A stretch of DNA of 64,000 nt from an uncultured Acidobacteriia bacterium (GTDB lineage: Bacteria; Acidobacteriota; Terriglobia; Bryobacterales; Bryobacteraceae), in contig CAIYVZ010000016.1 in assembly GCA_903929755.1 (NCBI GenBank), positions 1 to 64,000 on the forward strand, given 5' to 3'. The number at the start of each line of letters is the position of its first letter. The first letter of the stretch is position 1. A program made the position numbers and the translations under genes. Under the pieces are notes generated by a model. The model saw only the letters and a list, made by a program, of their open reading frames with translations. It was not told the origin of the DNA and ran no database searches. Shown piece after piece: positions 59,383-64,000 of this stretch.

Positions 59383-62300
59383 TTACGACAGAAGCATTTC
59401 CAGGTCTTCTTTTTGCAGATTCCGGATCAGACTGTTGTCCGCCGTAATGATCGACGACACCAGATCGCGCTTCGACTGCTGTAGTTCAATCACCTTTTCC
59501 TCAACCGTATCGGTAGCAATCAGCCGGTACGCAAACACCTGCCGGGTCTGCCCGATTCGGTGCGTCCGGTCGATCGCCTGGGCTTCAACTGCAGGATTCC
59601 ACCACGGATCCAGCAGGAACACATACCCCGCCGCCGTAAGGTTCAGCCCCACGCCGCCGGCTTTCAGGCTGATCAGGAAAACCGGGCATTTCGGATCGTT
59701 CTGGAAACGCTCCACGTGATCCTGGCGGTTGTTCGTTTTGCCGTCCAAATATTCGTAGACGATGCCCTGCGCGTCCAGCCTTTTACGAACAATGTCCAGC
59801 AAACTGGTGAACTGCGAGAAGACCAGCGCCTTGTGTCCCTCCTCCACGATCGGCGTGAGATGGTCCATCAAAAGATCGATCTTGGAACTTGGTTCTTCGG
59901 TACGAGTCTTGTCGATCAAGCCCGGGTGACACGCTGCCTGCCGCAAACGCAACAGCGCTTCCAGAACGTGAATACCGGACTTCCCAATACCTTCACGCTC
60001 AATCCGCCCCAGCAGGGTATCGCGGAAGTGCTGCCGAAGTTCGTTGTAGAGGCGGCGCTCGGTAGGTTCCAATTCACAGCGAAGCGTCTGCTCGGTACGC
60101 TCGGGCAGTTCCCGGGCAACCTGACCCTTGGTACGCCGCAAAAGGAAGGGGCGCAACGCATGCGCCAGCAGAGCGCGGTTTTCTTCGTCCGGATTCCGCA
60201 TGGAACTGCCGGTCATGCGGAACACATTCGCCGAACCCAGCATCCCAGGATTCAGGAATTCGAACAGTGACCACAACTCGCCCAGATGATTCTCCACCGG
60301 CGTGCCGCTCAACACCAGCCGGTTACGGCCCTTCAGCAGTCGGACCGCTTTAGCCGATTCACTGGTAGAATTCTTCACTGCCTGCGCTTCATCCAGCACG
60401 ATGTAATCGAACTGAATGTCCTTTAGCTTCGGAGCATCACGCCGCAGCGTACCGTAAGTGGTGATGACCACGTCGAAAGCTGCCAGAGGGAGATCCGCCC
60501 GGTTCGCACCTGTGTAATCGTGGATCGTCAGCTTCGGAGTAAACCGCGCCGCCTCAGCCTTCCAGTTGAAAACAAGGGACTTAGGAACTACTACCAGCGA
60601 TGGCCCGGACACCGTAACGCCGTCGGGCGAGGCTTCGCGCAGCGCCCGGCGAGATTCCAGCAGCGCCAGAACCTGCGGTGTCTTACCCACCCCCATGTCG
60701 TCCGCCAGACAACCGCCGAAGCCGAAGCGGCGGAGGAAGCTCATCCAGCCCAGACCTTCGCGCTGGTAGTCGCGCAACTGGCCCACGAAGCCCTCGGGCT
60801 GAACCGCAGCTTCCACGCCCGAAAAGTCCCGCAATTCGGCGCGCATCCGGGTAAAGGTCTCGTCACAGGTAGCTTCCGGCTGCGCAGCAAGCAGGGCGTC
60901 CAGAATCCCGGCCTGGGCAAACCCAAATCGCATCTTGCCGTCCACCGCATCGCCCAGCCCGGCAATCAGGCCGAATCTCTTCAGCCACGAATCCGGAAGC
61001 AAACCAAAACCGCCGTCCGAAAGCCGGACCACGGTCTCGCCCCGGCGCAGCGCTTCCAGCAGTTGCGGCAGGTCGGCGGTGGCGCCGCCGTAATCCACCT
61101 GGCCCCACAAATCGAACCAGTCCACGCCGCTGGTGACTTCCACACGCATGGCGCCGGCTGGGCGGAACGACTTGCCGTCCGTCTCCACGTGCCATTTGTC
61201 ATTCACCAGCGCCCGAATAATTCGCGGAAGTTTGGCTGCGGGCAAAAGCCAGTGAATGTCGTTGTACCAAGCCTGGTAACGCCCCCCCAGCAATGCCAGG
61301 CGTTCCGTAGCCTCTCGTTCCGCTGCCGGATCCCGGCGGATGAAACGACGAGCGGCGGAATCGTAGACCCCCGACCCTTCGGCCTGCTGAAGCAGGGAAT
61401 GGCCTTCGTAATCGAACGAAAGAATACCCCGAAGGTTACGCGGGTCATCGGCGCTCGAAGAAATCCGCAGAATCGGCCGGGGAGCCGGCGACGTTTCCTC
61501 GAACTCCAGCTCAGCCGGGACCTTGATCTTCGGCAGCCGCGGGGCCGACAGGAGCGCGGCCAAAAATTCGTCGCGGTCCGGGTCCGGCACGTCCAGAGTC
61601 TGTCCGGAGCGGAAATGATTGATCCATTCCAGACTCGCCTCCGCATCAAGAGGGGAAACTTCGATGCGCACCGCGCCGTCTTTGGCAACGGGAAGGCGAG
61701 AAAAAACGAACCCGTCACCGCCGGACGCGCCCGCCGTGATGAGTTCAGCCTCAGCCACGGTGAGTCGGCTACCCTCGCGGCTCAGCATCCCCTGAAGCCG
61801 CCAGTTGCCTGCCACGGGTTCAATTTCCAGGGCAAAACCCCAGGGGCTTTCGTTCCAAACCACCGGAACGGCGTCCTGTGCCCCCTGCGCCTCACGCAGC
61901 AGCAGACGCCCCTGGCGAGCGGCCGCCGGAACCACAATCCGGGCCAGCGGCGCGTCGATCGCAGACAGCGAGGGAACCGGATTCTGACTGGCCCACCCGT
62001 AATTCGAACTCATCATTGTGCCGGAAAGAGCGCCGGAGACGGCGGCCAGAATATTGTGATCAATCTGGTCAGGCAAGCGGGAAATATCGGCGCGGCGCAG
62101 CGTGAGAGGGACAATTCGCCCCCATTCGCCATCCGCCCGGCGGTCTCTGAAGTGCAACCCCAATTGCAAGGCCCCGGTGGCTAATGCGCCGTTGCGGTTC
62201 AAAACGTACAGGATTTCACGGCCGTGCGGCCAGCGCCAGGTCTCCGCGGGGGATGTGGGAGTGGGGGCGGAAGCCGCAGGCGTGCCGTCAATCAGTTCAC

Positions 62301-62706
62301 GAAGACGAGCCCGCCAGGGCACTCCCGAAGTTGCGACGACGGGCCCGGATTCGAAGTCGGGTTCGCCGTCGGCAGTTTCCGTACCTGCGGCTTGCCCCGG
62401 CCCTGGCGCAAGCCGAGTGGCACGGGCAGCCGCCGAAAGATAACGCAGTTTCTCCGCCGCCAGCACGCCGGCCCAAAGGTGACGACAAGGGCCTTCCGTA
62501 TCAAAAAAGCTGCAATCACAGGAAAGGCGCAGCTCGTTCCCCGAAACCTCGATCATCACCTCATGCGGTTCGGTGCCCCGCACCCGGCCTTCGAATTCGG
62601 TGGGGCTGCCATGCAAAATACGCACGTAACCGGCTGTAAAGTAGGCCTGACCACGCTGGCGCACACTTTCGCTAAACCAGGGTGAGAGATGGGAGGAGAT
62701 GCTCAT
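59383..62706 (-). CDS. SNF2-family helicase with N-terminal SWIM zinc finger
   Basis: ATG 62706 gives 1107 residues; the frame continues upstream but without domain content. The SWIM zinc finger is C63-x-C65 and C74-x-H76 ([16 protein letters not shown]). A long middle region of ~500 residues is beta-rich. The SNF2 core starts at about 650: [17 protein letters not shown] (Walker A variant), [19 protein letters not shown] (DEAQ box), [20 protein letters not shown], then the C-terminal helicase half with [24 protein letters not shown] and [25 protein letters not shown]. These act in DNA remodelling or stress repair. It is monocistronic and divergent from the FeeM-like gene. Confidence 0.9.
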   Translation of the reverse strand: [1107 protein letters not shown]

Positions 62707-62832
62707 GGCGTCCGCAGACGAACGGACTGAAGTTATTTTATCTGGCCCACATGGTTTTCGGCGAAAGTTGAAAAACATCTGGCGGTAATTGCCCCCGGGA
62801 GACGCCTGTAGAAATGAAAGCGAGACCACAAT

Positions 62833-63474
62833 ATGAACTGCTTCATCGCAAACACTCCCAGCCTTTTGGACCGCGTTTACCAGCTGCGGTACTTTTGCTA
62901 CCAGCGCAAGGGCGCCATCGAACAGTCGCCGGAGGAGAAGTTCCACGACAAGTTCGATGAACTCCGAAACAGTATCAGCGTCCTCGCCGAGTCGGAAACC
63001 GGAGAGGCTCTGGCGACGGTGCGCATCTCGGTGGTAAAGCCGTCGGTGGGCTGGGGGGATTCACCTGCACAACACGTCTTCGGAGACCACCCGTGCCTCC
63101 AGGCGATCGCCGCTGAGAGCTACGTGGAAGCAAGCCGCCTGTGTTTTGGCCCCAGTGCGCGACGAGACTCCTTCGTCACCCTGCTGGGGCACATGGCGGC
63201 GCTTGCCGAGTACTACGAGGCGGACTGGCTGGTGGCCTGTCCCCGAGTCGAGCATTCCGAGGTCTATCAGCGAATGTTCGGCTTCAGGCCACTGGCCGCA
63301 CCCCGGCAGTACTTCGGGGTGAACTTCCAAACGCAGCTTCTGGGTATCCGCCGCAGCGAACTGGCTGAATATGTACGGGCAGCCCGGCCCATGAAAAACG
63401 CCTGGGCCAACGCGCTGGAGCGCCTGATAAAGTCGGCCACGCTCCCCGCGCCAATAGCTTGCCGGGCCGCGTGA
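62833..63474 (+). CDS. FeeM-like N-acyl amino acid synthase (GNAT fold)
   Basis: This 213-residue protein matches FeeM-type synthases, which join a long-chain acyl group from acyl carrier protein to an amino acid. Seen: VYQLRYFCYQRKGAIEQSPEEKF (the hallmark R-Y-x2-Y-C-x-R-K-G-A segment), FDELRNSISVLAES, ATVRISVV, VEASRLCFGPSARRDSFVTLLGHMAALAEYY, WLVACPRVEHSEVYQRMFGF, and QYFGVNFQTQLLGIRRSEL. The fold is related to autoinducer synthases. The Shine-Dalgarno is weak. No acyl carrier or export gene is adjacent; downstream lies the end of a quinoprotein on the other strand. The product is probably a lipoamino acid used in signalling or envelopes. Confidence 0.8.
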   Translation: MNCFIANTPSLLDRVYQLRYFCYQRKGAIEQSPEEKFHDKFDELRNSISVLAESETGEALATVRISVVKPSVGWGDSPAQHVFGDHPCLQAIAAESYVEASRLCFGPSARRDSFVTLLGHMAALAEYYEADWLVACPRVEHSEVYQRMFGFRPLAAPRQYFGVNFQTQLLGIRRSELAEYVRAARPMKNAWANALERLIKSATLPAPIACRAA

Positions 63475-63602: not shown

Positions 63603-64000
63603 CTATTTATCAAGCGTGAAGGCAATGATGCTGTCGTCCACCACGGGATTATTGAAGAACCCGCCGCCCGTGGCCGTAATCACCACGTACTGCTTGCCGT
63701 CGGCTCCCTGATAAGTCATCGGCGTAGCTTCGGCGGCACCCTTCAGCTTGTACGTCCAGACTTCCTTGCCCGTCTTCGCATCGAAGGCGCGGAAGCGTGC
63801 GTCATCGGTGGCCCCAACGAACACCAGGCCACCAGCAGTAGCAATCGTGCCTCCGTTACCCGGCCTGCCGGTGTTCTGCTTATCGGCAGGAAGGCTGTCG
63901 GTAACCCCCAGCGGAACGCGCCAGGCAAACTCACCGGTGTTCACGTTCACGGCCGTCAGCGTACCCCAGGGTGTCTGCTGGCAGGGGAACTGCTGGGCCG
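63603..64000 (-). CDS. PQQ-binding quinoprotein, 3' part only
   Basis: The minus strand reads from the window edge (AQQFPCQQTPWGTLTAVNVNTGEFAW) through GLVFVGATDDARFRAFDAKTGKEVWTYKL and ATPMTYQGADGKQYVVITATGGGFF to FTLDK and a stop. This is the last three propeller blades of a membrane- or periplasm-type quinoprotein glucose dehydrogenase relative (the CQxxPWGTLTAVN motif is typical). The N-terminus, with the metal signature, lies outside. It is the third PQQ-type gene of the window. Confidence 0.88.
   Translation of the reverse strand, partial: AQQFPCQQTPWGTLTAVNVNTGEFAWRVPLGVTDSLPADKQNTGRPGNGGTIATAGGLVFVGATDDARFRAFDAKTGKEVWTYKLKGAAEATPMTYQGADGKQYVVITATGGGFFNNPVVDDSIIAFTLDK

Follow-up and report, generated by a model that had tools for sequence, protein, structure and literature searches.

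A probable stand-alone N-acyl amino acid synthase of the FeeM family encoded in an acidobacterial genome

Introduction

FeeM-type synthases were discovered through the expression of DNA from uncultured soil microbes. To our knowledge, their natural hosts and their role are largely unknown.

The single N-acyl amino acid synthase (NAS) gene Nas354, the product of which has a domain resembling the solved FeeM structure (2G0B), leads to the formation of N-acyltyrosine in E. coli, with the host assumed to provide the acyl-ACP; a lone NAS gene can therefore be sufficient (PMC4897644). Glu95 is the proposed active-site residue of FeeM, and the exchange E103A in Nas354 abolishes the phenotypes (PMC4897644). 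The OlsB-type enzymes (PF13444) are related acyltransferases, which also N-acylate amino acids from acyl-ACP. Aminolipids are formed in two acylation steps, the first of which is often catalyzed by an OlsB-type PF13444 enzyme (PMC11631085). A literature search yielded no papers that join N-acyl amino acid synthases and Acidobacteria, with subscription papers largely outside its scope, and in a broader search of titles and abstracts no such enzymes were found to be described in Acidobacteria.

Here, we have analyzed a stretch of 64,000 nucleotides from an uncultured Acidobacteriia bacterium (contig CAIYVZ010000016.1, positions 1 to 64,000), in the following called the window, for which an initial annotation had proposed a FeeM-like N-acyl amino acid synthase gene that stands alone. 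The window protein has the PF21926 domain and the catalytic glutamate (predicted to be Glu99) in common with FeeM (2G0B), NasY1, Nas343, and Nas354, and, as described for the type I NAS (PMC4897644), it would be able to act as the product of a lone gene. In contrast, its identity to the solved FeeM is very low, it lacks the PilZ domain that is carried by Nas343 and Nas354, and, in comparison with the type I NAS, its close orthologs occur, within the order searched, in a single acidobacterial family only.

Results

The open reading frame extends exactly from 62833 to 63474 on the forward strand, from an ATG to a TGA, is intact, and encodes 213 amino acids. All three segments quoted in the initial annotation, VYQLRYFCYQRKG, VEASRLCFGPSARRDS, and WLVACPRVEHSEVYQRMFGF, lie within its translation, as had been claimed. 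The features of the locus are summarized in Table 1. The protein matches PF21926 (FeeM) with an E-value of 8.4e-27 and a score of 94.3 bits, compared to a curated cut-off of 27 (hmmscan, Pfam), and because of this match the reading frame is, judged by its sequence, more than a chance ORF. The gene is present in a single copy in the genome, which is 97.9% complete. Rough dN/dS values of 0.04-0.10 among the three closest orthologs (G000, G008, and G003), which are approximate due to the saturation of dS, indicate strong purifying selection on a working gene. An Rfam search of its surroundings resulted in no match.

Table 1. Position of the predicted synthase gene, its putative key residues, and the adjacent features in the window.
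Feature	Position	Strand	Evidence
SNF2-family helicase gene, divergent, ATG at 62706	59383..62706	-	L012 ortholog matches SNF2-rel_dom and Helicase_C; synteny
Intergenic region between helicase and synthase genes, 126 bp	62707..62832	.	Alignment A7, three species
Predicted FeeM-type N-acyl amino acid synthase gene, P0001, 213 aa	62833..63474	+	PF21926; orthologs; dN/dS
Arg19 codon (LRY motif), in common with LuxI-type synthases	62887..62889	+	Invariant in 21 relatives; 5w8c alignment
Asp39 and Asp42 (HDKFDEL motif), in common with LuxI-type synthases	62947..62958	+	Invariant in 21 relatives; 5w8c alignment
Glu99 codon, predicted catalytic glutamate (FeeM Glu95)	63127..63129	+	2G0B profile alignment; conservation
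PQQ-dependent dehydrogenase gene, convergent, C-terminal part in the window	63603..64000	-	PF01011, 631 bits, L011:3604-5646

PF21926 was matched by all of the 21 relatives scanned, which, together with the score of the window protein, supports the proposed FeeM-like family. A clear assignment to another GNAT family was looked for and not found, the models of both the OlsB type and the exosortase-linked type remaining below their cut-offs. Specifically, PF13444 reached 20.7 bits, just short of the cut-off of 22.4 (hmmscan, Pfam), and TIGR03694 reached about 21-21.7 bits, far under its cut-off of 111.95 (NCBIfam); the latter, below its cut-off, and two chance-level matches were the only NCBIfam matches. 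Neither Pfam nor NCBIfam, searched up to E=10, gave a match to an autoinducer synthase (LuxI) family model. By these profile comparisons, the protein is a further member of the known FeeM family and represents no new kind of system.

The PF13444 score close to the cut-off, and the fact that 13 of the 21 relatives touch this model, would fit to an OlsB/GlsB-like enzyme that opens a pathway to membrane aminolipids and would form a lyso-aminolipid to be completed by an O-acyltransferase. However, the FeeM score is more than four times higher than the PF13444 score, and an O-acyltransferase partner of the OlsA/PlsC-like type is neither found adjacent to the synthase gene nor recognisable as a cluster among its neighbors (Pfam on selected neighbors only), and thus this function is unlikely. 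It is hardly conceivable that the synthase serves a PEP-CTERM/exosortase system, as the NAS enzymes of TIGR03694 do: The genome does encode a strong exosortase (240 bits), and the synthase is its only TIGR03694-like match, but the score of the synthase is 21.7 compared to a cut-off of 112, no protein of the genome exceeds this cut-off, and the synthase gene, on contig C16, is separated from the exosortase genes, which were found on C191, C79, and C144. The exosortase-associated acyltransferase (TIGR03694) and the synthase have a distantly related N-terminal half in common, 20 of the 21 relatives touching the model; unlike the former, the synthase is not encoded beside an exosortase.

The similarity to solved structures became visible with broad profiles alone. 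A phmmer search with the single synthase protein gave no match in the PDB, and profiles built from close orthologs did not reach FeeM. The two best PDB matches of the superfamily profile A6 were the AHL synthase 3p2f and FeeM 2G0B, the latter being covered from residue 13 to 170 (full length) with a marginal E-value of 0.013. In this alignment of marginal E-value, the glutamate of the 2G0B motif AEVVQFA (chain index 96) falls on Glu99 of the synthase. Chain index 96 is presumably FeeM Glu95, assuming one extra residue in the chain. Glu99 is conserved to at least 90% in the 21 relatives, and the ortholog of G022 has an Ala instead of the Glu. Together with Arg19, Asp39, Asp42, Arg64, and Arg102, it aligns with residues of the LuxI-type AHL synthases (5w8c and 3p2f), and the six residues are invariant or nearly so in the 21 relatives. 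In contrast to the LuxI-type AHL synthases, no recognised luxR gene adjoins the synthase gene. An AlphaFold model from a three-sequence alignment had a pLDDT of 39.7.

The neighborhood of the gene differs between lineages. The SNF2 helicase gene lies beside the synthase gene in three species, and from the genome studied this link in position extends only to G003 and G008; in G016 a helicase ortholog is present, and no FeeM is detectable in the 547 bp that remain on the contig. The helicase is a positional neighbor with no functional part. The 126-bp region between the two genes has a mean column identity of 85% in the alignment of the three species, and a sigma-70-like site was looked for in this region and not found. 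An inverted repeat (GTCCG-8-CGGAC, 62710-62727) is situated just 5' of the helicase start and is kept in G003 and G008. Genes for a PQQ dehydrogenase are found near 5 of the 28 FeeM loci, in mixed positions and on mixed strands, and the enzyme is no functional part of the synthase system. Genes for a receptor, export, resistance, or other biosynthetic steps are absent from the synthase neighborhood, and neither an ACP gene nor a lipid pathway adjoins the gene. Clustering of the neighbors over all 28 loci did not reveal any gene that is common to the group. The claim that the gene stands alone is thus borne out by its single copy, by the clustering without a conserved partner, and by the lineage-specific neighbors.

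Within the genus, the gene order SDR-hydrolase-FeeM is present in G006 and G018 and the order hydrolase-FeeM in G015, these genes lying directly upstream of FeeM, and in these three genomes a convergent ECF sigma factor gene is located on the other side of FeeM. In G015 and G018 a gene for a TPR protein is situated between FeeM and the ECF sigma gene. In addition, the hydrolase is present in all seven FeeM genomes of the genus, but only in 1 of the 12 others. A dedicated small pathway could be imagined, in which an SDR, an alpha/beta hydrolase, and FeeM would generate a modified or hydrolysable N-acyl compound. However, 51 of the 257 genomes of the order carry the hydrolase, 8 of them together with FeeM, and outside of the genus it is present in only 1 of 21 FeeM genomes. 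The SDR-hydrolase pair of G000 is encoded on another contig beside an acyl-CoA ligase gene, and in G003 and G008 the pair likewise lies away from FeeM and next to such a ligase gene. The co-occurrence within the genus may simply reflect phylogeny. A fixed pathway of this composition was therefore rejected, because the hydrolase does not track FeeM across the order, in spite of the strong coupling in the genus, and we regard the dedicated pathway as very improbable.

Of the 257 genomes of the order, 28 contain an ortholog (E<=1e-20); these represent 11 of 84 genera and one family throughout. For the genus, the count is 7 out of 19 genomes. When mapped onto an rpoB tree of 16 congeners, the presence of FeeM requires three changes, and the FeeM tree splits the genus, with moderate support only. 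Because the FeeM tree does not group the genus, loss, transfer, or both are possible explanations for the distribution. No relatives of the synthase were found among the viral contigs of IMG/VR.

Several FeeM-family genes elsewhere have other neighbors. One such gene, with the annotation acyl-homoserine-lactone synthase, lies on a Loktanella salsilacus plasmid (NZ_CP072995.1, L136:4396-6121), where it overlaps a gene that resembles those for isoprenylcysteine carboxylmethyltransferases; a SAM methyltransferase gene comes next. On Sulfitobacter plasmids (L132:5428-8221 and L133:5152-8211) genes for a SAM methyltransferase, a FeeM-family acyltransferase with 31-34% identity to the window protein, and a HAMP histidine kinase lie in a row. 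A pairing with a fatty-acid-modifying enzyme was seen twice: The start of the FeeM-family gene overlaps a fatty acid hydroxylase gene (PF04116) in G010 (contig C15, L019:8778-10138) and a fatty acid desaturase gene on a Deinococcus plasmid (L134:3925-5654). Three loci (L039:1450-3006, L034:364-2031, and L041:304-2169) encode proteins of 520-620 amino acids with a FeeM-like N-terminal domain and a C-terminal part that is aminotransferase-like by eye; for L039 the FeeM domain alone scored in Pfam, barely above the cut-off.

Discussion

The results argue for a type I NAS, i.e., a FeeM-family enzyme, that depends on acyl-ACP and stands alone, and we assign a probability of roughly 0.8 to this interpretation. 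In this reading, the acyl carrier protein of the cell itself would donate a long-chain acyl group to the enzyme, Glu99 (corresponding to FeeM Glu95) would be the catalytic residue and activate an amino acid at its amino group, and the N-acylated product would be released. We infer the dependence on ACP, the long chain of the donor, the choice of amino acid, and the nature of the product. Of the initial interpretation, the FeeM family and the lack of conserved partners are supported by the results, while the production of a long-chain N-acyl amino acid is a prediction based on the family assignment and on the putative catalytic Glu99, which has been retained.

The biological role may be that of a lipid signal, a surfactant, or an antibiotic, and none of the genes around the synthase gene favors a function as a signal or as an antibiotic. 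Regulatory genes close to the FeeM orthologs encode an ECF sigma factor (L117, L118, L100, and L120), a TetR regulator (L125/L122), or a hybrid kinase (L045), and the families differ between lineages. It might be speculated that this NAS subgroup, which is restricted to one acidobacterial family, forms a diffusible N-acyl amino acid signal, the control of which has been rewired repeatedly, because the orthologs adjoin different regulators, i.e., two kinds of ECF sigma factors, TetR, hybrid histidine kinases, and GGDEF-EAL proteins; we consider this extension unlikely.

An intact FeeM-type subgroup that is under selection has now been placed in acidobacterial genomes, where it has a patchy distribution and no fixed partner genes. 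One gene would thus be enough for expression to reveal the product of the synthase.
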